Origin: Flavobacteriales bacterium | GTDB taxonomy: Bacteria; Bacteroidota; Bacteroidia; Flavobacteriales_F; PHOS-HE28 | NCBI GenBank assembly: GCA_019912395.1 | Contig: JAIOIH010000001.1 | Span: 1 to 64,000, forward strand | Reading direction: 5' to 3' | Length of the DNA stretch: 64,000 nt | Shown here: positions 10,336 through 33,543 of the stretch, one piece after another | Numbering within the stretch: position 1 is the first letter of the stretch | Layout of the letters: the number at the start of each line of letters is the position of its first letter | Notes under the pieces: generated by a model | What the model was told of the DNA's origin: nothing | Database searches by the model: none | Seen by the model: the letters and a program-made list of their open reading frames with translations, nothing else | Translations under genes and position numbers: made by a program

Positions 10336-10417
10336 GGCGGTAGCAATTTCACATGAAAGTGGTATGGCACGGGCGATGGCATTGCCGGAGTTTTGCTGCA
10401 TAACAAAGCACCACAAC

Positions 10418-11305
10418 ATGAAACCAACTGCTACATTTTTTGCCATCCTGCTCACTGCCATGCTTCAGGCCCAAGTGACCCTGCAGCAAAGCATGATCGC
10501 CCCCGGCGGTATACACCTGGACATGTATATGGTGACCGCCCCGGGCAGCGCCACCGAACCCTCTGACGGTGCCAACCAGACATGGGACCTCAGCACCATC
10601 ACGGTGCAGCCCGTGGGGGTGTTGGATTTTGTCACGTCCACCAATACGCCTTACGCCGCAACCTACCCCAGCGCCAACTGGGTTTGGGCGCAAGCCCCTA
10701 CGGGAATGGCGACCGATTACGTGTACCTGAACATCTCCGCCAGTGGCATTGAAGTGGTCGCCGATGACGTGCCCAGTGAAACCAACAATTACACCGACCC
10801 CAAGCGCGTCCTCCAGTTCCCCATGAGCCTGGCACAGAGCTTCACCGACAGCTATACGGATATGGACGGCCCCGCCTCGGTTACATGGAGCTACACCGGC
10901 CACGGCACGGCCATTACCCCGCTGGGCACTTTTGCGGATATTGCCAAAGTGGTGAGCACGGAAGATGATGTGCTCCTGTGGAACACCTCACCCCTCTATC
11001 CGCTTGTGATCGCTGATGGCAACAGCATGTTGGTCTTCGTACCGGGCAACGTGGGCATCTCGGATGCTGGGGACCGGGCTGCGGTGCAGGCATATCCCAA
11101 CCCGTGCACCGACCATTTGCTGGTGGAAGGAGCGCTGGATGCCTCTTGGAAGATCACTGACCTGCAGGGCCGCACCTTGCGCACGGGCACCTTCAACAGC
11201 GTGGAGCTGCAACAGCTGCAGACCAGCGATCTTGCCACCGGCAGTTACATCCTGATGATGAGCACCAAGGGCATGGATAGGACCATCCGCTTCAACAAGC
11301 AGTAA
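10418..11305 (+). CDS. T9SS type A sorting protein, secreted, unknown function
   Basis: A 295-residue secreted protein. The signal peptide ends TAMLQAQ. A ~200-residue N-terminal domain contains ANQTWDLSTI, LQFPMSLAQSFTDSY and a GTFADIAKV segment. The C-terminal type A sorting domain opens YPNPCTDHLLVEG and ends near TGSYILMMSTKG. The ATG at 10418 gives a standard signal peptide; longer starts do not. The N-terminal domain has the same plan as those of the proteins encoded at 12052 and 52593 (a dissolved-mean opening, a TWxF/TWDL turn and a GTFDxL(R/K)V-type strand). No catalytic motif was seen. Confidence 0.82.
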   Translation: MKPTATFFAILLTAMLQAQVTLQQSMIAPGGIHLDMYMVTAPGSATEPSDGANQTWDLSTITVQPVGVLDFVTSTNTPYAATYPSANWVWAQAPTGMATDYVYLNISASGIEVVADDVPSETNNYTDPKRVLQFPMSLAQSFTDSYTDMDGPASVTWSYTGHGTAITPLGTFADIAKVVSTEDDVLLWNTSPLYPLVIADGNSMLVFVPGNVGISDAGDRAAVQAYPNPCTDHLLVEGALDASWKITDLQGRTLRTGTFNSVELQQLQTSDLATGSYILMMSTKGMDRTIRFNKQ

Positions 11306-11400
11306 GAGCCGGTTGAGCCATCCGGCCGGAACCGGTATTGGAACGCGGGATCCGCTGCGCTCGCTTCGGCAACTGGCATTTCTTCGTGTTCCCCCGTGAA

Positions 11401-11434
11401 GGTCGGCATGAAACGGTTGCGGACATTGCGGTAC
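11401..11434 (+). repeat. Short intergenic sequence shared with 33422-33459
   Basis: GGTCGGCATGAAACGGTTGC followed by GGACATTGCGG matches the minus strand at 33422-33459 (GGTCGGGATGAAACGGTTGC, then GTCCATTGCGG) at all but about three positions. Both copies are intergenic. The surrounding 11306-11564 has no other gene that I can support. Confidence 0.5.
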
Positions 11435-11564
11435 CATCAAGTCCGTTCTCTCCGTACATCATCCTCGTTGATCCGCGGTCCCGGACATGCAGGGAATAGC
11501 TGCTCATCCCGGAAGATCACCGGACCTTTGCACCGCTCTTGCGTACGTGAGCAGTTGTGCCACC

Positions 11565-11909
11565 ATGCCTACCGTGTACACCGTCTATGTGATCGAGCTC
11601 AGCCGGAGGGTCTTCACCGAGGACCGCAAGTTCCGCGAGGCCAACCCGCAGTACAACGGTGTGCTGGAATGCCTCTATGTGGGGCAGACGAGCAAGTCAC
11701 CGAAGGAGCGGTTCGAACAGCATAGGACGGGATACCGCAATGCGAAGGGACGGAAGCTCTCGTCCCCCATCGTGGAGAAGTACGGCCGCTACCTGCGCCC
11801 CAGCCTCTACGAGGACATCGGACCGCTGAGCCGCGCGGAGGCGTTGGAGGTGGAGAAGGGACTTACGCTGGAATTGAGGCGGAAGGGGTACGCGGTGTGG
11901 TCCAATTGA
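11565..11909 (+). CDS. GIY-YIG nuclease-like protein
   Basis: A 114-residue protein with the two diagnostic strands of the GIY-YIG fold: VYTVYVIEL near the N terminus (GIY equivalent) and LYVGQTSKSPKERFEQH (about 38-54, YIG strand followed by the conserved Arg and His helix). A candidate catalytic Glu lies in the C-terminal helix EALEVEKGLTLELRRKGY. A ~20-residue insertion separates the two strands, longer than in the minimal domain. The ATG at 11565 places the first strand at the N terminus. The gene stands alone with no restriction or repair genes around it, so its role (nicking, repair or domesticated nuclease) cannot be told. Confidence 0.7.
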   Translation: MPTVYTVYVIELSRRVFTEDRKFREANPQYNGVLECLYVGQTSKSPKERFEQHRTGYRNAKGRKLSSPIVEKYGRYLRPSLYEDIGPLSRAEALEVEKGLTLELRRKGYAVWSN

Positions 11910-18167: not shown

Positions 18168-18896
18168 ATGCGTGCAAACGACGTGAAAGACATCAGCAAG
18201 ATCCTCTTTTTGGACATCGAGACCGTCGCTGCTGTCCGGGCGTTCAGCGAGTTGGATGAGCGCAGCGCAAAGCTCTTTGGCGATAAAACACGTTTCGAAC
18301 AGGAGCGAAGTGGGAAGACCGCCGAGGAGATCTATGGCGAGCGTGGCGGCATCCTTGCGGAGTTCGGAAAGATCATCTGCATCGGCTTCGGTGGCTTGAA
18401 GAAGGAGGGCAACGGCCATGCGTTGCGCGTCACCTCGTACCATGGCGATGATGAACGCGATGTGCTCCAGCGTTTCGCGGACCTGCTTGACAAGAACTAT
18501 AACACGGACGACCACTGGCTCTGCGGCCACAACGGCAGGGAGTTCGACTTTCCATGGATCGCGCGGCGCTGCATCGTACACGGCATTAAACTGCCGAAGC
18601 TGCTGGACGTTGGGGGCCTGAAACCGTGGGAAGTGGGTTTCCTCGACACCATGAACCTATGGAGCTTCGGCGACCGCAAGAACTTCACCTCGCTCGCGCT
18701 GCTCACCCACATCCTCGGCATTACCACACCCAAGGACGACATCAGCGGAGCCGATGTGGCGCGCGTGTACTATGAGGACAAGGACCTCGAACGCATCGCC
18801 ACCTATTGCAAGAAAGACGTGGTGGCCACGGCGCAGTTGTATTTGCGCTTGCGCGGGGAGGCGGTGGTGAAGGAGGAGGATGTGGCGTTGGTGTGA
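18168..18896 (+). CDS. 3'-5' exonuclease, RNase H-like DEDD fold
   Basis: A 242-residue predicted exonuclease of the type found alone in Bacteroidota and related to the proofreading domain of family B polymerases. Exo I is FLDIETVAAV (D and E bind metal; about 15-24). Exo II is CGHNGREFDFPWIARR (about 123-138). Exo III is ERIATYCKKDVVATAQLY (about 207-224) with the last catalytic Asp. It should remove nucleotides from 3' ends in DNA repair or RNA processing; the true substrate is unknown. It stands alone, with the inverted-repeat element just upstream. Confidence 0.85.
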   Translation: MRANDVKDISKILFLDIETVAAVRAFSELDERSAKLFGDKTRFEQERSGKTAEEIYGERGGILAEFGKIICIGFGGLKKEGNGHALRVTSYHGDDERDVLQRFADLLDKNYNTDDHWLCGHNGREFDFPWIARRCIVHGIKLPKLLDVGGLKPWEVGFLDTMNLWSFGDRKNFTSLALLTHILGITTPKDDISGADVARVYYEDKDLERIATYCKKDVVATAQLYLRLRGEAVVKEEDVALV

Positions 18897-19059
18897 AGGG
18901 AAGGAGATCCGGGCCGGGCAGACTGGCTTGTGCGTTGAGCAACGCGGTGGAATTAATGGCGAGTCATCGGATGGGCTACTTTGGCTGCGGAATGTTAGTG
19001 CGCTTGGGACAACCTTCGGCTTTTCGACCCCAAACGATGCTTATGGAATTTCCCTTTGC

Positions 19060-20376
19060 ATGAGCCAGCGAAACAGGTTTCAGCAGCAGCATACACTCGC
19101 GACCAATACCGATCGCCATTTATTGGAATGGCTGCTCTTTATGCTGGTGGCCTTCCTCTCTTTGCGGGAGGCCTGGATCATCGGGGAGCCGAACACCTAC
19201 GATTTCTTCTGGAAGTCTTGGGACGGATTGGGGTATTACCAATGGTTACCTTCTGCATTCATCACGGGGAAGTTCGATTGGATGTTCTGGTGCAAGAAGA
19301 TCTCGGACCACTCCGCGATAAGCCTCTATACCTTGGGAGTGGCTGTATTGGAACTTCCCTTTTTCCTGCTCTCCCAGTGGCTCACTTGGATGTTCGACTA
19401 TCCCAATACGGGTTTCGCACCCACGAACGCTATTTGCATGATGGCGAGCACGGCCACTTATGCCGGTGCTGGAGCGGTGCTCAGCTTCAAACTTGCACGG
19501 CGTTACAGCACCATCCCGGCGGCTCTGCTCGCAGTGATCGCGATCTACGCGGGCAGCAACCTCTACTACTATTCGACCAGCCAGCCGCTGATGTCGCATG
19601 TCTATTCCTATTTCCTCATTTCCCTGTTCTGCTGGTGCGGCTTGCGCATTATCGACGGACCGCGACGGGTGCATGTATTCTTGTTCCTCGTCTCCGGAGC
19701 CTTGATGGTGCTGGTGCGGCAGTTGAATATCGTGGTCGCCCTCTTCCCGCTTTTGATGGCGTGGAATTCCCCTTCCGGGATCCGGGGCGCTTGGAAAAAC
19801 CTGATCCGCCACCGCGGTGCGTTAGTTCTCGGGCTGGTCCTTGGCCTGATCCCTTGGGTGCTCCAGTCCGTCTACTGGCACTACATCACCGGGGATTGGT
19901 ATGCCAATGGCTATTCGTATGTGGGAGAGTCCTTCGAGTTCGGCAAAATGGTGCCGGGCATGGTGCTCTTCAGCCCACGGAACGGATGGTTTGTTTATAG
20001 CCCGATCTTTCTCATCGTGATGGGCACCTTGCTCGTTCAAGCTTGGCGCGGCAGACGGCCGGCACGGTCTATTCTGCTGATCTTCGCCTTAACCGTGCTC
20101 ATCTACAGCGCATGGTGGTGCTGGTGGCTCGGAGGTGCGTACGGGTATCGCGGTATGATCGACCTATACGGCCTGTTCGCCATTCCCTTTGCGTGGTTCT
20201 TCCGCTCGGTGATGCGGCGTTCCTGGGCCTTGCGCATATTTACGATGGTGTTGCTTTGGGCTTTCGTGAGGTTGAACTTCGGAATGATAGAGCACTGGGA
20301 TTATGACGTGTATTGCGCGAACGGCTCATGGCCCGCATTGATGGATGTAGTGGGAAAGATCGCAGATGGGCAATGA
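19060..20376 (+). CDS. Multi-spanning membrane protein, GT-C glycosyltransferase-like
   Basis: A 438-residue integral membrane protein with about ten hydrophobic segments. The first periplasmic loop holds acidic residues in a GT-C-like position (EPNTYDFFWKSWDG), and a later loop has YWHYITGDWYANGYSY and FSPRNGWFVYSPI, a phrase common in such proteins of Flavobacteriales. GT-C enzymes transfer sugars from polyprenyl-phosphate donors on the periplasmic side. The ATG at 19060 was chosen because upstream codons in the same frame are not protein-like. Its stop overlaps the start of the next gene by 11 bases, so the two are probably one transcript. The enzyme class is inferred from topology and context only. 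Confidence 0.7.
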   Translation: MSQRNRFQQQHTLATNTDRHLLEWLLFMLVAFLSLREAWIIGEPNTYDFFWKSWDGLGYYQWLPSAFITGKFDWMFWCKKISDHSAISLYTLGVAVLELPFFLLSQWLTWMFDYPNTGFAPTNAICMMASTATYAGAGAVLSFKLARRYSTIPAALLAVIAIYAGSNLYYYSTSQPLMSHVYSYFLISLFCWCGLRIIDGPRRVHVFLFLVSGALMVLVRQLNIVVALFPLLMAWNSPSGIRGAWKNLIRHRGALVLGLVLGLIPWVLQSVYWHYITGDWYANGYSYVGESFEFGKMVPGMVLFSPRNGWFVYSPIFLIVMGTLLVQAWRGRRPARSILLIFALTVLIYSAWWCWWLGGAYGYRGMIDLYGLFAIPFAWFFRSVMRRSWALRIFTMVLLWAFVRLNFGMIEHWDYDVYCANGSWPALMDVVGKIADGQ

Positions 20377-22450
20377 TGAACGCATGAGAAGTGATCTACA
20401 ATATGGGAAGGAACACTCCGGACCCAAGTGGCTGTCGTCCTTGGGCATCGTTGTTTGCTTGGTCTTGTTCCTGATCGGCATCTGGTCCGTGCCGTTAGCC
20501 ATTTTCGGGCCGGACCGGGCATTGATCCCCGGCGATCTGGCAGATGCCCGGTTCAATAATTACATGCTGGAGCACTTCCATCTCTTTATTACCGGAAAGA
20601 CCGGATCATATTGGGATGCGCCGTTCATGTATCCGTGGAAGAACGTGATCGCCCTGTCCGATAACTTGTTGGGCACGGCACCCTTCTATTCAGCTTTCCG
20701 CACGCAGGGGTTCAGCAGGGAAGGCGCGTTCCAAGCATGGATCCTGTCGCTCTTCGCACTGAACTATTGGTGCTGCCTCATCGCGTTCCGAAAGTGGGGA
20801 GGCAACTGGATACTGGCCGCATGCTCCGCATACATCTTCGCCTTCGGCATTTACAACATCGGGCAGATGAACAATCTGCAAATGCTGCCGAAGTTCATGG
20901 TACCCTTGGCCTTCCTGTTCTTTTGGAAGCACCTCTCCAAGGGTTCCTGGAAGTATTTGCTCTTAGCTGTGCTGGCAACCGTGTACCAGTTCTATTGCGG
21001 GGTTTATCTGGGCTTCATGTTGGCCTATGCGCTCTTCTTCCTTTTCATCGGTCATGTGGTGATCTATCGCTCACCGTCCTATATCGGCCGCTTCCGTGAA
21101 TGGCGCTTTGCCATTGGCTGGCTTGGCTGTGCCGTGGTGGGCCTATTGCTCCTGATGCCGATGATGCTCCCCTACATTCAAGTGGCGAAGGACCTGGGTA
21201 CGCGGAGCTTTGCGGAGGTGGTGGATTCCATACCTCGCCCGAGCTCCTACTTCTTTACGCATCCTGCGGCCCTTTCCTGGCGGGCCCTGAACGAGGTGGG
21301 GAAGAATGCCTTCCCGCTCTGGTGGAGCCATTTCTTGTTCATTGGTGCGGTCCCATGGGTCGCCTTGCTCATGTCACTTGTGCTTGTTTTCAGTAAGCGG
21401 ATCCCTCGTGCATCCCGCCAATTGATCATGGCGTTCGGGATCGCTCTCCTGTTGAGCACCTTGTTCTGCCTGAACTTGGACGGCCACACCTTGTATGCCT
21501 TGGTCTTCAAATTGCCGGGTTTTTCAGCACTTCGCGCCATCGACCGCTTCATCAATGTCCAAGTGCTCTTTTTTCTCTTGGTGTTCGTGGCCGTGCTGCG
21601 TCCATTGTTCCGGAAACCGGGAGCTGCGTTGGCACTAAGCCTGGTACTTCCCTTGTTGGTGGTGCAGGACAATCGCTGGGCCGTGGACTGGACCAAGCGG
21701 TTCGACAAGCATGAGTCCCGGAAGCTCGTACAGGATGTGGAGCGGCGCATCACACGGGAATATGGTGGCTCGGAAACTTGGGATGCCATCGCCTACGAAC
21801 CGCTCAGGCCGGTCTGGGACGACCATGAACGTTGGCATTTTGAGACCATCACGATCCAGCTCAGTACCATGCTTGCCGCACAACAATTGGGCATACCGGT
21901 CGTCAACGCGTATTCCGGTTCGTATCCAGGCAATTACATTTCATTCTTCGATAACATGGACCACCGCACCCTTGCGGATTGGTGCCGGTTCAACGGGATG
22001 GAACCTGATCGTATCCAAGAGGTTCATGGACTGGGGATCCCGGTGGCGGCTATCGATACGGTGTTGATCCAGGCCCCCAACGGGCGCTATGTCAGTTGTG
22101 ACGAATCCAAGGATGCCCTGATCATCGCGGACCGGGCCGTAACAGGTGTTTGGGAGAATTTTCTACGGGTGCGGACGACGGACGGGCGCTTTGCCTTCTT
22201 GGCGCACAATGGGAATTATCTCAGTGCCGAGGAGGAGGATGGCGGTCGATTGGCCGCCACGGGCCTGGACCTGGGGGACTTCGGCCTTTTTACAGTGGAA
22301 ATGCAAGCCGATGGCTCTGTGTCCTTCAAGGCGCACAACGGGCGCTTCCTTTCGCTCAACTGGGATTCAGGCCAGCTCTTCGCCACCAGCAGTTCACCCG
22401 GTTTCGATGATCGGTTCAGAGTGACACTCTCACGAAGGACTCCACGTTGA
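20366..22450 (+). CDS. GT-C-like membrane protein with C-terminal fascin-like beta-trefoil
   Basis: A 694-residue protein. Residues about 25-430 hold roughly ten to eleven transmembrane segments, with a first-loop acidic motif IPGDLADARFNNY typical of predicted GT-C membrane transferases. A soluble region follows (about 430-565). The C-terminal ~125 residues (about 566-690) contain three repeats of (A/H)NG(R/N)(Y/F)(V/L)S: APNGRYVSCDESKD, AHNGNYLSAEEEDGG and AHNGRFLSLNWDSG. That is the hallmark of a fascin-like beta-trefoil. Such domains bind actin in animals and are associated with sugar binding elsewhere. Here it would sit in the periplasm and could hold an acceptor glycan (inference). It overlaps the upstream gene and converges on the GH5-like gene with a 7-base gap. 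Confidence 0.75.
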   Translation: MGNDERMRSDLQYGKEHSGPKWLSSLGIVVCLVLFLIGIWSVPLAIFGPDRALIPGDLADARFNNYMLEHFHLFITGKTGSYWDAPFMYPWKNVIALSDNLLGTAPFYSAFRTQGFSREGAFQAWILSLFALNYWCCLIAFRKWGGNWILAACSAYIFAFGIYNIGQMNNLQMLPKFMVPLAFLFFWKHLSKGSWKYLLLAVLATVYQFYCGVYLGFMLAYALFFLFIGHVVIYRSPSYIGRFREWRFAIGWLGCAVVGLLLLMPMMLPYIQVAKDLGTRSFAEVVDSIPRPSSYFFTHPAALSWRALNEVGKNAFPLWWSHFLFIGAVPWVALLMSLVLVFSKRIPRASRQLIMAFGIALLLSTLFCLNLDGHTLYALVFKLPGFSALRAIDRFINVQVLFFLLVFVAVLRPLFRKPGAALALSLVLPLLVVQDNRWAVDWTKRFDKHESRKLVQDVERRITREYGGSETWDAIAYEPLRPVWDDHERWHFETITIQLSTMLAAQQLGIPVVNAYSGSYPGNYISFFDNMDHRTLADWCRFNGMEPDRIQEVHGLGIPVAAIDTVLIQAPNGRYVSCDESKDALIIADRAVTGVWENFLRVRTTDGRFAFLAHNGNYLSAEEEDGGRLAATGLDLGDFGLFTVEMQADGSVSFKAHNGRFLSLNWDSGQLFATSSSPGFDDRFRVTLSRRTPR

Positions 22451-22457
22451 CACTGCC

Positions 22458-23924
22458 CTAATGGGCAAAACGCAAAGGGTCCAGAACAAGGTCGCCGAGA
22501 TAATAAGCAGGTACGCTATCCGCCCTGGTGAGGAAGGCGTTCGGGCGGCAATCGCCCCGCACCATCGAATACCGGGTGGCTGAGGCCATCCAGTGGTGGA
22601 AGCGGAAGTCGCCGAACAGGTCAAAACTGCCGTCCGCCTTGGAGATCGTGTAATAGGATCTGGTCCAGTGCTCGTTCCAGCCGAGCACCACGCCGCCTTC
22701 AATGGGCCTGCGGTCCTGGTCCACCAACCTTCCGGTAAGCTTGGCCTCGTGGAGCGAGGAGAAGTTGTAGTAGTTGGGCAATTTCACGCAGGTTCCGTGA
22801 TCGGTGTTCCGGTCGAAGGAGGTGAAGGCTTCCACCACCGGCTTCACCGTGCCCTCGATCGGCGGCATTCCCGGTCCAGCCTCGGTCCATCCTGCACGGT
22901 CCACCACACCCATGTGGTCCGCATGGAAACGTCCCCAATGCACATCCTTGAACTGCCACCAGGAGTAGCCGATACCGCCGCACGCCAACGTTTGATCGAG
23001 GGTCTTGCGCGCAAAGGCCAGCTGGTCCGCGTAGAGCACCGAATCATTGTCGGCGGGAATAGCGGTTTCGCCGATGATCCATGGCTTGTCCACGTGCTGC
23101 CCATACCAACGGATCTCGTTGCGCACCTGCTCAGGTTCGTATTCGTAGGGGTGGAAGGAGATGAAGTCCACATCGAGGATGTTGGGGTCCCATGCGAATA
23201 CCTCAGGCACGCCCACCAGGCCGATGGTGACCAACTGGTGCGGCGCATGTTCCTTCACCAGCTGTCGCCATCGCTTCACCACCTCATGTACTTCCGTCTT
23301 GGGGCGATGGTGCGGCATATCGAAGTAGAGCGGCTCGTTGAAGAGGTCATAGGCCAACAGCGCAGGACGGTCCCGGAAGCGGTCGGCAAGGCGGACGAGA
23401 TGATCTTCATACGGCTTCTCACCGGGCACCAGCCGCACCAACAGGATCACCTTCAGCTTTGTGCGCTCGGCCACTTGGAGCAGCTCGTCGATCGCCCGCA
23501 GGTAGCGTTGCTCGTGGTCCCCGGCGAAGGTGTACAGGGAATCATCCCCCATGCCGAAGCGTCCTTGTAGGTGCAACGTGTCGTTGCCCGGAGGGAAGAC
23601 GAGGTCCGATGCAATGCCCACGATCCGTACCGTATTGAAGCCCATGCGTTTGATGAGGGTGAACTCTCCCTCGATCTGCATCAAGGAGGAATCGCGTGTG
23701 TTGAAACGGAAGCGATCGGCCCGCTCGTAATTGCGGCAGGAGGCGGCCCAACATGCCGTATCGTTCCACTGCAGATCAGCGATGTAGTTGATCGCCAAGG
23801 GAAAGTACGGTTCGTCGTTCTCCACGAAGGCACCATTCTCCAGCGTTACGAAAGTGGATGGCGTAGTACCAGTGCAGCCATAGAGCAATAGACTGGCAAA
23901 GATCGAGGGCAAGAGCCTGAACAT
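22458..23924 (-). CDS. GH5-like glycoside hydrolase lipoprotein
   Basis: A 488-residue exported lipoprotein (lipobox LLLYGC, lipidated C17). It has a TIM-barrel of clan GH-A (about 30-370). The acid/base Glu is E197 in DLFNEPLYF and the probable nucleophile is E286 in IIGETAIP; FISFHPYEYEP and YSWWQFKDVHWG line the expected active site. A C-terminal domain of ~100 residues (KLTGRLVDQDRRPIEGG, then a beta-strand series) looks like a carboxypeptidase-regulatory or Ig-like module. It probably cuts a beta-linked polysaccharide at the cell surface. It closes the minus-strand glycan operon, 15 bases after the GT2 gene, so it may trim the polymer that the operon makes. Confidence 0.82.
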   Translation of the reverse strand: MFRLLPSIFASLLLYGCTGTTPSTFVTLENGAFVENDEPYFPLAINYIADLQWNDTACWAASCRNYERADRFRFNTRDSSLMQIEGEFTLIKRMGFNTVRIVGIASDLVFPPGNDTLHLQGRFGMGDDSLYTFAGDHEQRYLRAIDELLQVAERTKLKVILLVRLVPGEKPYEDHLVRLADRFRDRPALLAYDLFNEPLYFDMPHHRPKTEVHEVVKRWRQLVKEHAPHQLVTIGLVGVPEVFAWDPNILDVDFISFHPYEYEPEQVRNEIRWYGQHVDKPWIIGETAIPADNDSVLYADQLAFARKTLDQTLACGGIGYSWWQFKDVHWGRFHADHMGVVDRAGWTEAGPGMPPIEGTVKPVVEAFTSFDRNTDHGTCVKLPNYYNFSSLHEAKLTGRLVDQDRRPIEGGVVLGWNEHWTRSYYTISKADGSFDLFGDFRFHHWMASATRYSMVRGDCRPNAFLTRADSVPAYYLGDLVLDPLRFAH

Positions 23925-23939
23925 CGTGCAGATCAGCGA

Positions 23940-24650
23940 TCAGCCTATTCCGTATTTCACGATGCACCATATCGCCCGGAAGCCGTCCTTCCAACCGATC
24001 TTCTTGCCTTCAGCATAGGTGCGGCCGTAGTAGCTGATGCCCACCTCGTAAATCCGAATACCCTTCACTCGGGCCAGCTTCGCCGTCACTTCCGGCTCGA
24101 AGCCGAAGCGGTTCTCCTTCAGCACAAGTCCCTTGGCGATGTCGCTGCGGATCAGCTTGTAGCAGGTCTCCATGTCCGTGAGGTTCAAATTATTGAACAC
24201 GTTGGACAGGAAAGTGAGCACCTGGTTACCGATGCTGTGCCAGAAAAAGAGGATCCGGTGCGGATGGTGGCCCATGAAGCGGGAGCCGAAGACCACGTCG
24301 GCGAAGCCCTCCACCACGGGTCGGAGCAGATCGTTGTACTCACGCGGATCGTATTCCAGGTCGGCATCCTGCACAAGCAGGTATTCGCCGGTGGCCTCCT
24401 GTATACCGCGGTGGATGGCGGCACCCTTGCCCATGTTCTTCGGTTGCTCGATGAAGCGGATGCCCATGGCGGGGTTGGTAGCGATGTAGCGTTCCACGGC
24501 GGCCACCGTACCGTCCGTGCTGCCATCATTCACAATGATGACCTCCTTGGCGATCCCATTGATCAACGAAACATCTCGCACCTTGTCCAGGATCAAGTGG
24601 ATGGTGCGTTCCTCGTTATAGGCAGGGATGATGAGGGAGAGGGTTTTCAT
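23940..24650 (-). CDS. Family 2 glycosyltransferase (polyprenyl-phosphate sugar type)
   Basis: A 236-residue cytoplasmic GT-A enzyme: SLIIPAYNEERTI at the N terminus, VIIVNDGSTDGT for nucleotide binding, and the metal-binding VQDADLEYDPREY. A DMETCYKLIRSDI segment and a late KIGWKDGFRAIW are typical of dolichol-/undecaprenyl-phosphate mannose or glucose synthases. It probably loads a sugar from a nucleotide donor onto undecaprenyl phosphate, giving the substrate for the GT-C enzymes in the same operon. The ATG at 24650 overlaps the stop of the upstream gene (ATGA). The frame extends upstream as a shadow of that gene. Confidence 0.9.
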   Translation of the reverse strand: MKTLSLIIPAYNEERTIHLILDKVRDVSLINGIAKEVIIVNDGSTDGTVAAVERYIATNPAMGIRFIEQPKNMGKGAAIHRGIQEATGEYLLVQDADLEYDPREYNDLLRPVVEGFADVVFGSRFMGHHPHRILFFWHSIGNQVLTFLSNVFNNLNLTDMETCYKLIRSDIAKGLVLKENRFGFEPEVTAKLARVKGIRIYEVGISYYGRTYAEGKKIGWKDGFRAIWCIVKYGIG

Positions 24651-26074
24651 GCGCTGCGAAAGTCGGACATTTCCAACAACCTTCTTCCCCAAGCGGTTTG
24701 CGTCAACGCCAAGCAGGCGGCCAACACCACCAACCAGGCCACGCGGGACTGTAGCCGATCGTACACGTTGGCCAAGCTGGCGGTGACCACCGCGTTCAAC
24801 ACCACCCACGTCAGGAGCAGGGGTATCAATGTCCGTAGTTGTGAGTGTGCCATCCAGTTCCGCCGGATCCAGAGCAACACACAGACGGCCAATAGCAGGG
24901 CGAGCTGTACCACGCGGTTGCTGACCCCCAGGTCCCTCCACGCACCATTGTTCTGTAGGGAACTGTTGTAGGTGGAGAGTTCCCATGGCAAGCGGTCCGC
25001 AACTTCGCGGTGGGGTGCGGAGCCAAGCTGGTAAGACGAAAGTCCCGATGCGGCGTTCACTTGGAACAGCTGGGTGATGGACGCAACGAGGCTGCTGCGG
25101 AGGAAGCGGCCCAGGTACACCGGATCGGTGAGCAGGTCGTGTACCACGGGAGCCAGAAGCGTGTCGGCCACGGTCATTTTCGGCCCCATCTTGGTGGTGA
25201 TGCTGTTGTCGCCCCAGATAAAATCCACGGGCACCATCGGAAGCTCGTCCTTGTAGGGGCAGATCGCATAGTTGCGGTCGCCGCAATGTTCGCTCAGGAA
25301 ATCGGCAAGCAGATTGTTCTCGCAAAGGCGGGCGGAAAGGAAGACGTTCGCGCTGGGGGAGAACACAGGCCGCATGCCGTTCTGCCCGTTGAACCAAGCG
25401 ATGAAAGCGACCCCCGATACCAGCACCAATGCCATTCCACCGAGGTTCGGCCAAAAGCGCGGCCATGCACGCCTGCTATTCCATGGCAAATGGATCAGTG
25501 CCATGCCCACCAACAGCAGGGCGGCCATGGCCACATGCGCATTGTGGGTGATCAGGAAGAAGAACAGGCAGACCCACAGGACGCCGCGCTTCACCCTACC
25601 CAGCTCCGGCGCGCGGAAGAGCAGGTAGAGGATCAACGCGATCATCGGCGTGAAGATGTCCGGCATGATCTGCGCGGCATACCACGGCATGCTGGTACAA
25701 AGCACCAGGACGAGGACCAACAACAGGTGCGTACGCCAAAGCACTACCTGCGCGGGTAGCACCTTCCGCAGCGTCTCCCAGAGCAGCCAGGCCAGCATGC
25801 CCGACTGGAAGAGCACCACTGTCCACAGCGTGCTCTGCCACGTGACGGCCCGGATGATGAGGCTATAGCCTATCGGGCGGTCCGGTGGTGGTTCCAGTAG
25901 AAAGGCCTCGCGGATATAGGTGCCGGAATCCGAGAAGACCAACGGATAGCGGTTGTAGAAGGCCAGGGCACCGATCAGGAAGGTTGTGCCGATCAAGTAA
26001 AGCAGCCGACGCAAATAACTTAGCCTTGGGCCCATTTGATCCATCAAGTCAGACCGGCGGCTGTTGGAATCCAT
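24647..26074 (-). CDS. Multi-spanning membrane protein, GT-C-like
   Basis: About 475 residues with some ten transmembrane helices. The first loop, YPLVFSDSGTYIREAF, has the Asp-rich position seen in predicted GT-C transferases. The long loop (about 205-330) holds NNLLADFLSEHCGDRNYAIC and WGDNSITTKMGPKM. It overlaps the GT2 start by four bases (ATGA) and the upstream GT83-type gene by about 26 bases if the start at 26074 is right. A start at 26044, just after the upstream stop, is equally possible. It is part of the glycan operon. Its exact sugar is unknown and the class is inferred from topology and neighbours. Confidence 0.72.
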   Translation of the reverse strand: MDSNSRRSDLMDQMGPRLSYLRRLLYLIGTTFLIGALAFYNRYPLVFSDSGTYIREAFLLEPPPDRPIGYSLIIRAVTWQSTLWTVVLFQSGMLAWLLWETLRKVLPAQVVLWRTHLLLVLVLVLCTSMPWYAAQIMPDIFTPMIALILYLLFRAPELGRVKRGVLWVCLFFFLITHNAHVAMAALLLVGMALIHLPWNSRRAWPRFWPNLGGMALVLVSGVAFIAWFNGQNGMRPVFSPSANVFLSARLCENNLLADFLSEHCGDRNYAICPYKDELPMVPVDFIWGDNSITTKMGPKMTVADTLLAPVVHDLLTDPVYLGRFLRSSLVASITQLFQVNAASGLSSYQLGSAPHREVADRLPWELSTYNSSLQNNGAWRDLGVSNRVVQLALLLAVCVLLWIRRNWMAHSQLRTLIPLLLTWVVLNAVVTASLANVYDRLQSRVAWLVVLAACLALTQTAWGRRLLEMSDFRSA

Positions 26075-27626
26075 TTCCGTCTGTTCGGTAATAAAGCACA
26101 CCAGGAGGCATCTCAGCTTCCACACCTTCCGGCGGATCTACAATGATCACTTTGCGACCCAAGGCCAACAAGGATTTCACCAACTCTGCCGAAGGAACCA
26201 GTAAGGTCGCCTGGCAGTCATGGAAATACATCATGTTCATGCAGGCCGGAAACGGGACATTGTATATGACCACACCAGTGCTTTGCCCAGGACTCATGAA
26301 CTCGGCGAGGTGATCGATCACTTCAAGGTTATGCAGATTGCTCCCGCGCAATGACCAGATGAACGCATCATGCCTTGCTTGTTCCGTATGCCATTTTTGA
26401 ATGCGCTCCACATCCACCATGGCCCCCGCAGCCAAAAGCATCAATCCCATCATGAGCGCATTTTGTGCTTTGTGCGAAGCCAGTGGCAAGGAGACCCATT
26501 TGATCAAATGGGCAAGTCCAACAAAAAAGAAGGGGATGACCACCATGGGGAAGGCGCTCATCTTGGTTGCTGCCGCGGAATAAAAACCATAGGTTACCAA
26601 AACGCTTACCCATGCCATTGTGCGAAGCTCCCTGTTCCTGGTCATTGCGATGCACAATACCAATGCACCGAACATGAGCCAGTTTGGGAAGGCATGGAAT
26701 TGATCACGAATGGACTGGAGGTAATAATCCGGATTACCACCATGCTGTTCAACGACCGTTGTAAAGTGCAAAGCGTTCAGATCCATTTCGTGGGCCATGA
26801 CCACCGGGAAGCGCATCCATGCGCTGATCTGCCAAGGGATGGCAACGACAAGTCCGGTCAGGAAGGAGATGGTCATCCAACGTAGTTCTTTCGCACGTCC
26901 CTCACGCCGGGTCATGGCCACTACAGCCCATCCACCCATCAACAAGAACCCCGGAAGCCATTTGGTCAGTACAGCACAGCCCATGAAGAGCCCGATCGCC
27001 ACGGATTTCCACGTGGACATGGAACCCCGCCACCGCATCCATCCCCAGAAGGCTCCACCAACAAGGGAAATGAAAATGGCATCATTATGATCAAGCGTGA
27101 CCGCACCAATGATCAGCATCATGATCCAATATGACCAGGCCATGAGCATCGCCGCAATGAAGGCCACAGTACGCCCATGCATGGCACGGGCGATACCATG
27201 GGTGAAGAATACCAGCGCAGTGGTGAACAGAACGCTGGGCAGGCGCAATGCGAAGATCGTATTACCGAACACTTTGATGGAGATGGCCATCATCCATAGG
27301 AAAAATGGCTGCTTGTGTAGCCATATATGTGTACGGTCCCAAGACTCAATGCCCAGTTCCATCGCCATGTCCGAGTACAGCATCGGCGTGAACGGGTGGC
27401 TGGCCATATGCTTGGCGACAACGGCATGGACGCTTTCGTCCCAACTGTTCAGGAACGGGTCTAATTGGGCCACCATGAGCCGCATGGAAAAAGCTGCCAG
27501 AAGGATCAGGCCCAATGCCCAGCCATCCTTCTCCCTCAAATGCGCATAAACCGCAGCCAAGCAGGCCAGCACCGAACCTGCGATCACCGCTTGGTCCAAG
27601 GGGCTGAAGTACGATCCAAACATCAC
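26049..27626 (-). CDS. ArnT/PMT-type membrane glycosyltransferase (GT83/GT39-like)
   Basis: About 525 residues, with ten or more membrane helices and the GT-C signature of the ArnT/PMT_2 family in the first periplasmic loop: LNSWDESVHAVVAKHM (D63-E64), followed by WLHKQPFFLWMMA and FALRLPSVLF. A C-terminal soluble part (about 400-525) contains LATLLVPSAELVKSLL-like alpha/beta sequence. It transfers a sugar from polyprenyl phosphate to a lipid, glycan or protein acceptor in the periplasm. The start is GTG at 27626 or the ATG one codon later. The relic of an scoB tail ends 29 bases before it, the same relation that the intact scoB has to the next GT-C gene. Confidence 0.88.
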   Translation of the reverse strand: MMFGSYFSPLDQAVIAGSVLACLAAVYAHLREKDGWALGLILLAAFSMRLMVAQLDPFLNSWDESVHAVVAKHMASHPFTPMLYSDMAMELGIESWDRTHIWLHKQPFFLWMMAISIKVFGNTIFALRLPSVLFTTALVFFTHGIARAMHGRTVAFIAAMLMAWSYWIMMLIIGAVTLDHNDAIFISLVGGAFWGWMRWRGSMSTWKSVAIGLFMGCAVLTKWLPGFLLMGGWAVVAMTRREGRAKELRWMTISFLTGLVVAIPWQISAWMRFPVVMAHEMDLNALHFTTVVEQHGGNPDYYLQSIRDQFHAFPNWLMFGALVLCIAMTRNRELRTMAWVSVLVTYGFYSAAATKMSAFPMVVIPFFFVGLAHLIKWVSLPLASHKAQNALMMGLMLLAAGAMVDVERIQKWHTEQARHDAFIWSLRGSNLHNLEVIDHLAEFMSPGQSTGVVIYNVPFPACMNMMYFHDCQATLLVPSAELVKSLLALGRKVIIVDPPEGVEAEMPPGVLYYRTDGNGFQQPPV

Positions 27627-27655
27627 GGGGCCGGATGCAGATCAGTGTGCAGACC

Positions 27656-27730
27656 TTACACCTCCATCTCCTTCACCCCGTCCGGAACCACCAACCGCCC
27701 TTCCGTCTTCCCTTGGATCTCCTCCATGTT
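27656..27730 (-). pseudogene. Relic of the 3' end of an scoB-like gene
   Basis: The minus strand reads NMEEIQGKTEGRLVV then PDGVKEMEV and a TAA stop. The C terminus of the intact ScoB encoded at 30103 reads SVEEIKSKTEGRLVV then EGEVKEMVF and stop. About 17 of 24 residues agree and the stop is in the same place. Only the last ~25-30 codons survive. It sits directly upstream of the GT83-type gene. The protein-level match is better than the DNA match, so it looks like an old or foreign homologue rather than a fresh duplication. Confidence 0.8.
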
Positions 27731-28154
27731 CCCGCAGGGCTGGGAGAAAACTCCGTGAATTGATGCACATCCGGACAAACTTAGTATTTCCACGAAGGTT
27801 TCGGCCTGCCGTTCACATTATGAGGGCGTTCCGCCCAAATGTAGTCAGCGAAGAAATGGCTGTGTGACTTCTCCCAAAGAGCGGGTCCCATTATTGGCAA
27901 AGCATGTTCATTGTACGGATACGTAGATCGGCAATGTGGTCATGGTGCGGCGTTTCACCGCAAGAACCAACCCTGATCACCAGGGGTCAAGCCCCCAGCA
28001 AGAGGATCGATCAACCACCCACTGTGGAATTATGAGGCGATTGCCCTGTCTTTCTTCGGGGCATCTTCCGAGCATTGCGACTTGGACGATCGATGTTCGG
28101 CAGATCGTGTTGGGGCGGATCAGGGTCGTTGAATGTGCATTGGCCAGACCCGTG
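27731..28154. other. Gene-free spacer inside the glycan operon
   Basis: About 420 bases with no supported gene and a locally lower G+C than its surroundings. The first ~30 bases may extend the scoB-tail relic (minus-strand QPCGNM against APGVSV). The rest shows no motif I recognise. It could carry an internal promoter for the downstream glycosyltransferase genes. Confidence 0.5.
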
Positions 28155-30083
28155 TCAATGTATCACGCTTAGCACCATGTCGTCCAGATACATCACGTTG
28201 AGGTCGAACATGGGCCATGCGCTCATCTGCACGGTATCCCCGGGCAACAAGTCCACCATGGGAACCAACGATACTGCGAGCTTGGCCCATTGACCAGGAT
28301 ATCTGGCCTCCAACGTCGGCCCCATATTGCTCATGGCCAATTCCTGTTGACCTCGTGCCACACGTAATACCAGAGCGATCCAATTATTGGCTTCGGGTTG
28401 GAGGGTGCTGCCAGTACCATAGATAAGGACCATGCCCGCCGGAATAGTGTCGGGCACGACCCAATAGATACGGTTGGTTGAACGGGTAGCTGCATCAAAC
28501 CGTACCGAAAAACGCCCGCTTACATGTTGCTCATTGCTGCGGCCTATCACATCCGGGGCCTCCATGTCCAGCACTATACGCTCCGCTTTCCTGTGGAGCG
28601 CACGCATCCGCTTGTCACGGTACAGGTCCGTGCCGGTGGCGGCGGAATGGTATAGCAACTCCCAATTCAACGGATCCACCTGGTCCTGTCCGTCACTCTC
28701 CACGATGTAATAGTCGGCGGTCGCGAACGGCTTGGGGTATTCTCTGGGGGTCGCCATCAGCCATTGCATGTTATCCCGGACCTGATAATAGGGGAGGCAG
28801 CCCCAACTTTCGAAACTGGTGGACAGCGAGACCACGGGACGGTCTTTGCCGAGCGGCAGATGGTCATGGGAGATCAGTGCAAGCATTTTCGATACTTCCC
28901 CTTCCGGCTTCCATTCAACGCAATGGGTGAGGTTAGCGCTTCGAGCCATGTGCAACAGCAAGGGTAGGGCGAGCACTGTGCCCAAGGCCCCGGGGGTGAA
29001 TGATCCTCTTGGCCACGCCACCAAGCCTGAGACCGGGACGAAAAGGATCAACGGGACCAAGTACAGGGCAGTGCGGTCCTTGGGAAAGGGTGTATCGAAA
29101 AGAACGTGTTGCAACATATTGAAGGCTATGCAGGCCCCTGTCACGCAGGCCCCGAAAAGCATTACCTGCAGTTCTTTCATCCACCTGCCTCGCCAAGCCG
29201 AGAACACCACGGCCGTAACACATACTACGGCGAATGCAAAGAACACCAGCAGGATGCTTCGTGCCGGCCATCCATAGTGGACCAGGTACATGAGTTTTTC
29301 GGCAAGCGAGTTGAGCGCACAATCCCAGATCGAACCACAACCGAAGAAAAGGGATCCACCCTGGGAGAGAGCGATGGCGGATGGCAAGGTGGCGGCCAAT
29401 CCCAGAGCGGTGCCCGCTGCCACCACCCCCAAATGCCTCTTGGAGGTACCTTGGCCTCGCAAGGTGTCCATTCCCCACAGGGCGGCAAAAGCAGTGGCCA
29501 GCGCCAATAGGTAGTTGATCATGATAAGGTTGGACAGCGCCGACAACGCGGCCGTGAGCATGGCCAAGGCGAGCCATTTCAACTGCCTGCCCTCCGTGAA
29601 ATACCGGGTGAACATCCATAGGGAAAGCATCATCCAGCCAATGGCAAGGCCATACCCTCGGGCAAGTGAAAAGAAATCCAGCAGATATGGATCAAGGTTC
29701 AGGACGAGGAAAGCCGTAATGGACACGATGTAGTAAGGCGACCGTAATGCGATCCGGGCGGTTGCATATAGAAAGACCGCATGAGCCAATAAATTGGGCA
29801 ATCTCAAGGATAGCTCGCTATTCCCAAAAAGGTGGCTGGCCGCGATCATGCCCCACACATTGAGCATATGGTGATTGGCCCCCATCGCGTCAAAGGCGTT
29901 CTGGAAGTATACACGGGGGATGACGTAATGGAGAAAGCTCCAGCTCTCATCCCAGGTGAATGACACCGTGATGGCGCGGACCACCGAGTAGCACAGCAGT
30001 ACTACCGCGCAACAGAGTATGGTCGTTCGCGCAGCCAAGCGCTGGCCTTCAGGCGGAGTTATTGGCAAGTGTTCCATGGCCAA
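28155..30083 (-). CDS. GT-C membrane glycosyltransferase with C-terminal beta domain
   Basis: A 642-residue protein with about ten transmembrane segments in the first 400 residues. The GT-C acidic motif is in the first periplasmic loop, SFTWDESWSFLHYV (D45-E46), followed by ANHHMLNVW and LSLRLPNLLAH, as in PMT_2-type enzymes. The C-terminal ~115 residues form a predicted beta-sandwich (RFSVRFDAATRSTNRIYWV to the end), possibly carbohydrate-binding. It starts 19 bases after the scoB stop, in the same operon. It shares length, motif position and C-terminal plan with the protein encoded at 30771, so the two are probably paralogues. Confidence 0.82.
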   Translation of the reverse strand: MAMEHLPITPPEGQRLAARTTILCCAVVLLCYSVVRAITVSFTWDESWSFLHYVIPRVYFQNAFDAMGANHHMLNVWGMIAASHLFGNSELSLRLPNLLAHAVFLYATARIALRSPYYIVSITAFLVLNLDPYLLDFFSLARGYGLAIGWMMLSLWMFTRYFTEGRQLKWLALAMLTAALSALSNLIMINYLLALATAFAALWGMDTLRGQGTSKRHLGVVAAGTALGLAATLPSAIALSQGGSLFFGCGSIWDCALNSLAEKLMYLVHYGWPARSILLVFFAFAVVCVTAVVFSAWRGRWMKELQVMLFGACVTGACIAFNMLQHVLFDTPFPKDRTALYLVPLILFVPVSGLVAWPRGSFTPGALGTVLALPLLLHMARSANLTHCVEWKPEGEVSKMLALISHDHLPLGKDRPVVSLSTSFESWGCLPYYQVRDNMQWLMATPREYPKPFATADYYIVESDGQDQVDPLNWELLYHSAATGTDLYRDKRMRALHRKAERIVLDMEAPDVIGRSNEQHVSGRFSVRFDAATRSTNRIYWVVPDTIPAGMVLIYGTGSTLQPEANNWIALVLRVARGQQELAMSNMGPTLEARYPGQWAKLAVSLVPMVDLLPGDTVQMSAWPMFDLNVMYLDDMVLSVIH

Positions 30084-30102
30084 GGCCTACGAACCGCCCG
30101 GC

Positions 30103-30759
30103 TCAGAACACCATCTCCTTCACCTCGCCCTCCACCACCAATCGACCTTCTGTTTTCGACTTAATCTCCTCCACACTAACCCCCGGTGCGCGTTCGGTCA
30201 GCTTGAAGCCTTCCGGTGTCACCTCGAACATGCCGAGGTCGGTGATGATGCGTTTTACGCAGCCAACGCCGGTGAGGGGCAGGGAGCATTTTTTCAGCAG
30301 CTTGCTGTCGCCGTGCTTGTTGGTGTGCATCATGCAGACGATGATGTTCTGTGCGCTGGCCACCAGGTCCATGGCACCGCCCATGCCCTTCACCATTTTG
30401 CCGGGGATCTTCCAACTGGCAATGTCGCCGTTGTCCGCCACCTCCATCGCGCCGAGCACGGTGAGGTTGACCTTCTGCGCACGGATCATGGCGAAGCTGG
30501 TGGCGCTGTCGAAGATCGCCGAGCCGGGCAGCAGCGTCACGGTCTGCTTGCCGGCGTTGATCAGGTCGGCGTCCTCTTCTCCTTCGTAAGGGAAGGGCCC
30601 CATGCCGAGCAGTCCATTCTCGCTCTGCAGCGTCACGTTGATATCGGGTGGGATGTGGTTGGCCACCAGCGTGGGGATGCCGATGCCGAGGTTCACGTAG
30701 TAGCCGTCCTGCAATTCGCGGGCGATGCGCTTCGCGATCTGGTTCTTGTCCAATGCCAT
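30103..30759 (-). CDS. scoB: 3-oxoacid CoA-transferase subunit B
   Basis: A 218-residue beta subunit of succinyl-CoA:3-ketoacid CoA-transferase, which moves CoA between succinyl-CoA and acetoacetate or similar 3-oxoacids. It carries the family's catalytic Glu in QSENGLLGMGPFP, the glycine loop GIGIPTLVANHI, and GMGGAMDLVASAQ. The length is normal. The alpha-subunit gene lies upstream on the same strand but is separated by a complete glycosyltransferase gene, whereas the two subunits are usually adjacent. The start lies 11 bases after the stop of that inserted gene. A second, degenerate copy of the C-terminal codons lies at 27656. Confidence 0.95.
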   Translation of the reverse strand: MALDKNQIAKRIARELQDGYYVNLGIGIPTLVANHIPPDINVTLQSENGLLGMGPFPYEGEEDADLINAGKQTVTLLPGSAIFDSATSFAMIRAQKVNLTVLGAMEVADNGDIASWKIPGKMVKGMGGAMDLVASAQNIIVCMMHTNKHGDSKLLKKCSLPLTGVGCVKRIITDLGMFEVTPEGFKLTERAPGVSVEEIKSKTEGRLVVEGEVKEMVF

Positions 30760-30770
30760 TTCAAGTTCGC

Positions 30771-32609
30771 TTATTGATCGCCAATATCGTCATCTTTCAG
30801 GGAAGCTTCAGGCACGGGTCCATTGTCCACCAGATGGATCCGCACGCGGCCCGAGCAGGAATACCAAAGCCCGCCGGGATTCCAGAGGTAGACCACCACG
30901 CGTTGCGCGTCCATCGGTACGCACGGTATGCGGCGCACTACATGGATGCTGTCGCTGCGGGCGGGACTTCGCATGAACTGGAACAGCACGTCGTTCCGGT
31001 GTCCGGTGGTGTCCGATGCATTGGTCTCCACCACAAGGTCGCCGGTCATGGGTTCGTGGTCCGGCCGGAGCACCATGTTCAGTTCCACCAGAAAGGAGCG
31101 TCCTTGGACGCTCCGGATCGCCGGATGCCAGAGCTCCTTGAATTCCGCGTCGGAGCGCTCGCCGGTGAAGGTGCTGTCGAGCAACAGGGTAGTGGAGATG
31201 TTCTGTTCGTGCGCATAAAGGGCCAGCTTTCCGCTCGGAGCCATTGTCACTTCATGGTACCCCGCAGGAACGGAATCGCGTTGCGGTTCGATCAGGAGCA
31301 GGTCCTCCCCGCCGTGCGGGAAAGCGGAGACATCGACCGCGTTCAGGTGGAGGTCGCGTTGGCGCAGCCCGAAGCCCCAGCACGCCGGCATCTGGTGATG
31401 GGCACCGATGGTGAGCAGGCGAGGCGATCGGGCTTGTTGGGTTGCCGCAGCGTGGAAGATCGCATCGGGGATGGCCTGTTCGGGCCAGTACGTGGTAGTG
31501 CGGAGGTTGGCGGTGGCGATGGTGCGCAGCGGGAAGGCCAAGAGTACCAAGGCGAGCCATTTCCACGCAGGTGTTGACACCGCCTGCCGGTCCAGCGCGA
31601 ACGCGAACAGGAGGAGGAAGAGCGGCACCCACTGCAGTGCCGTCCGGTCCTCCGGGTAGAGGGTCCCGTTCCAATGGAAGAGGATCACCCTCCCCAGCAC
31701 ATCCGCCCACAGCAGGCCCGTGGCAACGATCAGCGCCCATTTCGGGAAGCCAGGTCCAGGTGCTCGGACCGCCCTCCATGCGACGAATGTTCCGGCAAGG
31801 ACGATCAGCACTACTGCACCTTCGGCAAGCAGCCTCGATCCCCCGAACATCGCATGCAGCAGCGAGGGGAGCGTGGCACCCAGGATTCCGTTGGCGCTCC
31901 CGTAGTAGAGCGCCCCATGCACGGAGAGCGCTTGCGCGTATGCTGCGGCAAGGAGGAACGGTCCGGCGCCAAGGAGCAGCCAGCCTGCGATCCTTAAAAT
32001 CAGTGGCCTCACTTGCATTGGCCGGCGGAGGATGACCACTGCCGTAATGGCGAGCACGGCGGCCCAGAGCGTGATCAAGCTCAAGGAACTGAACGTGGCA
32101 CCGGCCGCCGCCAAAAGGGTGAGCAAGAGCCTCTTCGTGGTCCGTTCCTCCAACAGTGCGCACAGCTCGTAGAGCGCCATCGTCCAGAAGGCCAAGGTGA
32201 GGCCATAGCCGCGGAAGAGCGAGAAGAAATCCAGCAGAAAGGGCATCAGCAGCAGCGCGGCCCAAAGGCACCAGCGGATCATCGGTGTCCGCAGCCGAAG
32301 GCCCCAGTGCCATGCGTAGGCCGCATAGATCAGGAAGGCCAGCACGCTGGGCAAACGCAACGCCCATGCCTTGAGGCCGAACGCGGAATAGCTCAGCCAC
32401 GCCAACGCGGTGCAGAGCAGGTGGTTGCCCGCGTCCCAGTGGGCTTGGAAGGGCAGGAAATTATCCGTTTCCACGTACACGAAGAAGGTCATTGCTTCAT
32501 CGTGCGTCACGGGCACCAGTACCGCGCGAGCAAGGACGTAGGCCAGAACAACCGCGGAAAGCAGGAGGAACGCGATGCGCTCCGTGCGGGGAGTGATGCC
32601 CGCCAACAT
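30771..32609 (-). CDS. GT-C membrane glycosyltransferase inserted between scoA and scoB
   Basis: A 612-residue protein with about ten transmembrane segments (to about residue 380), the GT-C acidic motif VPVTHDEAMTFFVYV (D37-E38) in the first loop, then AGNHLLCTALAWL and WALRLPSVLAFL. The C-terminal ~110 residues look like a beta-sandwich (GRSFLVELNMVLRPDHEP onward). It resembles the protein encoded at 28155 in plan and length. It lies 4 bases after the scoA stop and 11 bases before the scoB start, so all three must be read from one transcript. A periplasmic glycosyltransferase has no obvious role in ketoacid metabolism, so its position is best read as an insertion. Confidence 0.82.
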   Translation of the reverse strand: MLAGITPRTERIAFLLLSAVVLAYVLARAVLVPVTHDEAMTFFVYVETDNFLPFQAHWDAGNHLLCTALAWLSYSAFGLKAWALRLPSVLAFLIYAAYAWHWGLRLRTPMIRWCLWAALLLMPFLLDFFSLFRGYGLTLAFWTMALYELCALLEERTTKRLLLTLLAAAGATFSSLSLITLWAAVLAITAVVILRRPMQVRPLILRIAGWLLLGAGPFLLAAAYAQALSVHGALYYGSANGILGATLPSLLHAMFGGSRLLAEGAVVLIVLAGTFVAWRAVRAPGPGFPKWALIVATGLLWADVLGRVILFHWNGTLYPEDRTALQWVPLFLLLFAFALDRQAVSTPAWKWLALVLLAFPLRTIATANLRTTTYWPEQAIPDAIFHAAATQQARSPRLLTIGAHHQMPACWGFGLRQRDLHLNAVDVSAFPHGGEDLLLIEPQRDSVPAGYHEVTMAPSGKLALYAHEQNISTTLLLDSTFTGERSDAEFKELWHPAIRSVQGRSFLVELNMVLRPDHEPMTGDLVVETNASDTTGHRNDVLFQFMRSPARSDSIHVVRRIPCVPMDAQRVVVYLWNPGGLWYSCSGRVRIHLVDNGPVPEASLKDDDIGDQ

Positions 32610-33459: not shown

Positions 33460-33543
33460 ACCATGGGCAACGGACCGTGTTCCATCATCGTCCTTCGCAC
33501 GCTGGACCAGTGGGCCACCATTCCGCTATTCCGCGAGATCACC

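Follow-up and report, generated by a model that had tools for sequence, protein, structure and literature searches.

The gene at positions 20366–22450 on the forward strand of the window (the whole stretch of 64,000 nucleotides analyzed here) encodes a protein of 694 residues with an ATG start, in which a GT-C-like membrane glycosyltransferase body is followed by a C-terminal β-trefoil of the CBM92/fascin type. We propose that the protein is probably an inner-membrane GT-C enzyme, whose periplasmic CBM92-type trefoil would hold the acceptor or the growing product glycan near the active site.

A three-fold repeat forms a C-terminal β-trefoil

The motif NG(R/N)(Y/F)xS is found three times, as NGRYVS (residues 572–577; 22079–22096, forward strand), NGNYLS (residues 615–620; 22208–22225, forward) and NGRFLS (residues 658–663; 22337–22354, forward), with spacings of exactly 43 and 43 residues, confirming the three evenly spaced repeats reported in a first-pass annotation of this DNA. 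When the 694-residue protein was shuffled 200,000 times, no shuffled version contained even two matches. The repeats lie within a β-trefoil domain at residues 560–690 (22043–22435, forward), delineated by Pfam, profile comparison, AlphaFold and fold matching. The Pfam families FRG1 (E = 4e-7) and Fascin (E = 1.3e-6) both exceeded their curated cut-offs over residues 566–685, and phmmer searches of the PDB with the trefoil domain alone retrieved human fascin (E = 2e-8) and the CBM92 structure 7ZOH (3.6e-7). An AlphaFold model of the entire protein, built with 14 aligned sequences, contained 12 strands in residues 560–688, with pLDDT values of 73–93 over ten-residue blocks. By fold, this region matched fascin (Z 22.7, 122 residues) and 7ZOH (Z 20.4, 124 residues), with further matches to numerous trefoils (Z 18–23). 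The domain thus exhibits the three-fold repeat, the 12 strands and the approximately 125 residues of the fascin/CBM92/FRG1 superfamily. The annotation had proposed a fascin-like trefoil behind a multi-spanning body, to be abandoned if structure prediction showed no three-fold symmetry or if fascin profiles gave no significant match; the repeats, the Pfam matches, the predicted three-fold, 12-strand trefoil and the fold comparison all bear it out.

The trefoil is related to CBM92 carbohydrate-binding modules

The description as fascin-like holds for the shared fold, but fascin is merely a fold relative; judged from sequence comparison, the functional relative of the window trefoil is CBM92, not actin-bundling fascin. 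A profile of 41 trefoils, the window's included (A3), had 7ZOH, a CBM92-B, as its best PDB match (1.4e-30), ahead of fascin; the window domain alone also matched this structure. In the alignment to 7ZOH, the two WETF positions of the profile fall on WELF and WEVF, and the third, EEKF, falls on WERF. Each lobe of CBM92 has a WExF motif whose Trp-Glu pair binds the sugar (PMC11039641). One of the three motifs is intact in the window copy, which has WENF at the α-site equivalent (residues 596–599; 22151–22162, forward; motif from PMC11039641), FGLF at the β site and DDRF at the γ site, and thereby lacks the WExF in each of three subdomains that is widespread, albeit not universal, in CBM92. An actin-like or cytoskeletal role was rejected in view of the single trefoil and its predicted extracytoplasmic position.

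The α-site Trp-Glu is kept in six of nine same-genus orthologs (L001 and L003–L007) and not in L002, L008 and L009; L002, the closest ortholog, has no WExF site left. Across 49 membrane-fused trefoils, Trp-Glu is present at the α site in 24 and at the β site in 31, and 41 have it at one site or more, leaving eight with none. The γ site retains it in 2/49, compared with 13/16 secreted trefoils. The phenylalanine at the fourth position of WExF is far better retained than the tryptophan or glutamate. Loss of the γ site was also considered as a repeated adaptation (2/53 membrane-bound or AlgX-like trefoils vs 13/16 secreted ones; Fisher 1.4e-9), an idea we rejected since the loss represents few events on the tree, for which a paired test is powerless. 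Going by the tree, γ-site loss is instead a lineage feature.

The membrane body adopts a GT-C fold with the trefoil predicted outside

The GT-C body, residues 21–555 (20426–22030, forward), comprises 11 predicted transmembrane (TM) helices and a small extracytoplasmic α/β part preceding the trefoil. In fold comparisons, residues 20–555 matched yeast STT3 (8age; Z 19.0, 416 residues, rmsd 4.7) and AftD (6w98; Z 18.5, 425 residues, rmsd 5.1), matches that place the body in the GT-C fold, as first annotated. No Pfam family matched the body, and in NCBIfam MmpA alone was hinted at (24.7 bits against a cut-off of 210); a named glycosyltransferase family matching over curated cut-offs was thus found in neither collection. 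Likewise, no PMT or MIR Pfam model matched the protein, in which the trefoil is C-terminal and not part of an internal loop.

With 11 TM segments (helices taken from the AlphaFold model), the N-terminus is placed inside and the tail outside. The density of Lys plus Arg is about twofold higher in inner loops (0.187) than in outer loops (0.095), where the count for the C-terminal stretch of 265 residues covered its first 41 residues alone. The C-terminal trefoil is predicted to be extracytoplasmic by this model, and both the loop charges and the 11-helix topology support the periplasmic location originally assigned to it. Trefoils of relatives that follow signal-like N-termini were also counted in favor of this topology.

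The segment GDLADARFNNYMLEH (residues 56–70; 20531–20575, forward), which follows TM1 in the first extracytoplasmic loop, contains the residues G56, D57, R62, N64, E69 and H70, none of which varies among 20 orthologs, trefoil-bearing and trefoil-less alike. The acidic residue characteristic of this loop in catalytic GT-C proteins is present as D57. GT-Cs commonly have an Asp close to TM1 for which a catalytic role is proposed (PMC11127046) and, by analogy, D57 is a candidate catalytic Asp.

The fusion gene lies in a glycosylation island

Upstream, a gene for another GT-C-like protein (family F0; 18880–20376, forward) runs 11 bases into the fusion gene. Its product lacks a trefoil; within the class sample, 20 homologs from this family carry one. 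The convergent downstream neighbor (22458–23924, reverse strand) encodes a GH5-like protein with a lipoprotein-like N-terminus and NEP and GET motifs; this protein also has a C-terminal extension and is conserved beside fused orthologs. It is followed, all on the reverse strand, by a family 2 glycosyltransferase resembling polyprenyl-phosphate-sugar synthases (GT2; 23940–24653; all NCBIfam matches below cut-off), a polytopic protein with eight predicted TM helices that is GT-C-like by context only (24647–26125), a PMT_2/ArnT-like GT-C of family F2 (26049–27626), and two polytopic proteins of family F5 (28155–30083, with PMT_2 just below cut-off, and 30771–32609). The neighbors assigned to families (one F0, one F2, two F5) carry no trefoil here, while relatives of each do elsewhere. 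Six polytopic GT-C-like open reading frames (ORFs), the GT2 and the GH5-like lipoprotein are thus packed into less than 14 kb (18880–32609), and this region is a dense extracytoplasmic glycosylation island. Beyond it lie genes for an RCC1-repeat protein (33463–34932) and for a subtilase that carries GEVED and a T9SS sorting domain (35103–37712).

Trefoil fusions often occur several per polysaccharide-type locus. In genome G378 (L061), a stretch of 16 kb encodes a GH5 protein (10152–11621) that is 47% identical to the one in the window, two GT2s, an MBOAT, an AlgX-like protein and four trefoil-bearing polytopic proteins; between 443 and 14684, six ORFs bear trefoils, including a small lipoprotein-like one.

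The trefoil was probably gained once in this family and largely retained

The first-pass annotation called for a search for the same fusion in other genomes, and the genus as well as other Bacteroidota did yield relatives of the whole protein. On a tree of the bodies in this family (F1; 32 rows), the trefoil label requires three changes. Such counts cannot by themselves separate gain from loss; from the sequences, the fusion was probably gained once, in a clade of 18 rows (support 96/97), and lost at least twice, in L029 and L010, two trefoil-less orthologs nested among fused ones. The existence of trefoil-less orthologs indicates that the trefoil is not essential to the body. Two F1 copies in genome G031 (L003 and L020) may be paralogs or an assembly duplicate.

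It might be argued that the fusion is decaying, the trefoil of the window lineage being the remnant of a formerly trivalent CBM92 that has stopped binding. The two whole-domain losses, the single intact WExF of the window copy and the absence of any in L002, L008 and L009 fit such decay, but fold, spacing and repeat motif are preserved and the trefoil is retained in 16 of the 18 members of the fused clade, so that we consider this explanation highly improbable.

A GH5 homolog adjoins 12 of 15 fused orthologs with enough flanking sequence and none of 20 unfused orthologs, for most of which the flank was at most 1.5 kb, some being shortened by contig ends; the fused and unfused rows are related, and the counts are therefore given without a p-value.

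Related trefoils occur on several GT-C families and on other envelope proteins

Trefoil matches were obtained in 40 of 395 genomes of the class sample and in 7 of 345 genomes of a phylum sample, figures that are not comparable due to different samples and E-value limits. By hand count, about 40 of about 66 trefoil ORFs in the class sample are polytopic. The A3 profile was seeded largely with GT-C-fused rows and its counts lean toward them; as a check, the class search was seeded with Pfam Fascin, yielding 20 ORFs in 16 genomes, of which, by position match, 12 are polytopic and four AlgX-like.

Clustering of the bodies by BLASTP gave eight polytopic trefoil-bearing families (F0, F1 with the window protein, F2, F3, F5, F7, F8 and F9), along with AlgX-like proteins (F4) and secreted or small proteins. 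Five of the eight are linked to GT-C by Pfam or fold: F1; F0, whose body gave 45 GT-C fold matches at Z 12.8–25.6 before a drop to 5.7 (the body alone was used, because few aligned rows reach the trefoil, where pLDDT is near 33); and F2, F3 and F9, in each of which one member or more exceeds the PMT_2 cut-off. F5 falls just below the PMT_2 cut-off, and F7 and F8 are polytopic only. In two proteins (L070:5420–7495 and L072:5065–7167), an N-terminal trefoil follows a lipobox-like stretch and precedes a PMT_2 GT-C body. AlgX-like proteins with a C-terminal trefoil (L060:2481–4022, L061:8456–10108, L062:2054–3328 and L137:2076–3602) were also observed, with MBOAT genes nearby in L060–L062, suggesting trefoil-tagged O-acetylation machinery. 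Moreover, small lipoprotein-like single-trefoil proteins, mostly with three WExF sites, occur in the same genus (L013, L015, L016, L018, L066 and L082). The trefoil is apparently a mix-and-match part for building surface sugars in Bacteroidota.

Instead of binding sugar, the trefoil could be a protein–protein or scaffold domain bringing together the enzymes encoded in a locus (GT-Cs, AlgX-like proteins, lipoproteins), the leftover WExF residues being structural. Fascin trefoils bind protein, several trefoil-bearing proteins of different kinds share a locus, and many sites have lost Trp, with Phe at the fourth position outlasting Trp and Glu, all of which fits such a role. However, the best profile match is a demonstrated carbohydrate binder, most membrane copies (41/49) keep Trp-Glu somewhere, and many fused genes have no second trefoil in the flanking stretch examined. 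We therefore regard a scaffold as unlikely.

On a weakly resolved trefoil tree (69 rows, 125 columns), trefoils largely track the family of their body (20 label changes against 43 after shuffling). Copying of trefoils within genomes is unsupported overall, as genome labels are unclustered on this tree (57 changes vs 59 shuffled). The tracking bears on another explanation, in which the trefoil targets or anchors the enzyme on a cell-envelope glycan other than its substrate, as proposed for some CBM92 domains. All CBM92s tested favored β-1,6-glucan irrespective of the attached enzyme (PMC11039641), and one kind of trefoil occurs here on GT-C, AlgX-like and GH5 proteins, both as expected from targeting. 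Tracking by body family, in contrast, fits tuning to each enzyme, although vertical descent alone would also produce it; on balance, we doubt that targeting is the main role and rate it slightly below the scaffold.

A model for acceptor or product glycan holding

Based on these results, we favor the glycan-holding role. The GT-C body, presumed to be an active enzyme, would take a lipid-linked sugar at the outer face of the cytoplasmic membrane, the donor possibly being a polyprenyl-phosphate sugar made by the neighboring GT2. The trefoil would bind sugar, with the enzyme's own acceptor or product glycan as its putative ligand, and holding this glycan may increase local concentration or processivity, in analogy to proposals for PMT-MIR and EmbC. 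Acceptor glycan capture, as suggested at first pass, is thus retained as the most likely role, by analogy to known GT-C carbohydrate-binding modules (CBMs). We base this on the CBM92 match of the trefoil, its WENF site and the retention of the α Trp-Glu in the genus, in addition to the STT3/AftD and F0 folds, the charge topology, the recurrence of the fusion, the GT2/GH5/GT-C context and the retention in the fused clade; GT2, GH5 and further GT-C-like genes are conserved beside the fusion, and the same kinds of genes occur in the locus of another family. Counted against it were the single intact WExF here, the eight membrane-fused copies without any and the loss in L002, the trefoil-less orthologs, including the two nested among fused ones, the GT2 matches below NCBIfam cut-offs and the dispensability of a comparable module in GT136 (see below), which indicates that the effect of the trefoil may be modest. 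Neither a flippase nor a glycan was identified.

A broader, rather speculative possibility, which we hold less probable than glycan holding by the individual enzyme, is that the shared sugar-binding trefoil works like an interchangeable address label within a single extracytoplasmic assembly line. GT-Cs from several families would then dock on the same nascent glycan together with the trefoil lipoproteins and AlgX-like proteins encoded in their locus, each by its own copy of the domain, and the polymer itself would organize its modifying enzymes.

Comparison with known systems

Sugar-binding domains on GT-C enzymes are already known from EmbC, AftD, GT136 and PMT-MIR (PMC11127046, PMC7759382). 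The proposal that a trefoil on a sugar-transferring membrane protein constitutes a new use stands in part: CBM92 is a known carbohydrate binder, and sugar binding is therefore no new use for the domain, but the combination of a CBM92-type trefoil with an extracytoplasmic GT-C body, recurring on eight polytopic families, appears to be new. A literature search of partial coverage retrieved no report of CBM92 on a glycosyltransferase, and PMC11039641 names GH and PL partners of CBM92 and does not contain the word "glycosyltransferase". The fusion provides a testable handle on poorly characterized Bacteroidota GT-C enzymes, as the trefoil, expressed alone, could be used as bait for the glycan that each enzyme acts on.

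With the CBM92 domains CpCBM92A/B (PDB 7ZOI/7ZOH; PMC11039641), the window domain shares the trefoil fold, the best profile match and aligned WExF sugar contacts. However, described CBM92s reside nearly all on secreted GH or PL enzymes and usually have three WExF sites (PMC11039641), whereas the window trefoil sits on a membrane GT-C-fold protein and has one. Human fascin likewise shares the trefoil fold and the Pfam Fascin match, but is a cytoplasmic actin-bundling protein with four trefoils in tandem, unlike the window protein with its one trefoil after TM helices.

GT136 ORF12 of Citrobacter youngae O1 also has a GT-C body of 11 TM helices, with a CBM following TM11 at the extracytoplasmic C-terminus, and uses a lipid-linked donor; this CBM, however, is immunoglobulin-like rather than a trefoil, and although it bound the acceptor, activity in the assays performed did not depend on it (PMC11127046). 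The arabinosyltransferases EmbC and AftD, as cited in PMC11127046, are GT-C enzymes whose CBMs interact with the acceptor. AftD also matches the window body by fold; both differ from the window protein in the type of CBM and in the organism group.

PMT-MIR, like the window protein, combines a β-trefoil with a GT-C enzyme. Its α and β sites bind carbohydrate, while the γ site is either blocked or packed against the membrane domain (PMC7759382), resembling the γ-site loss in membrane-fused trefoils. MIR, however, lies in an internal lumenal loop, binds mannose via other residues and is eukaryotic (PMC7759382), whereas the window trefoil is C-terminal. The two cases, eukaryotic PMT-MIR and the type described here, suggest that sugar-binding trefoils joined GT-C enzymes more than once in evolution, and such repeated addition bears on how extracytoplasmic glycosyltransferases locate their acceptors.
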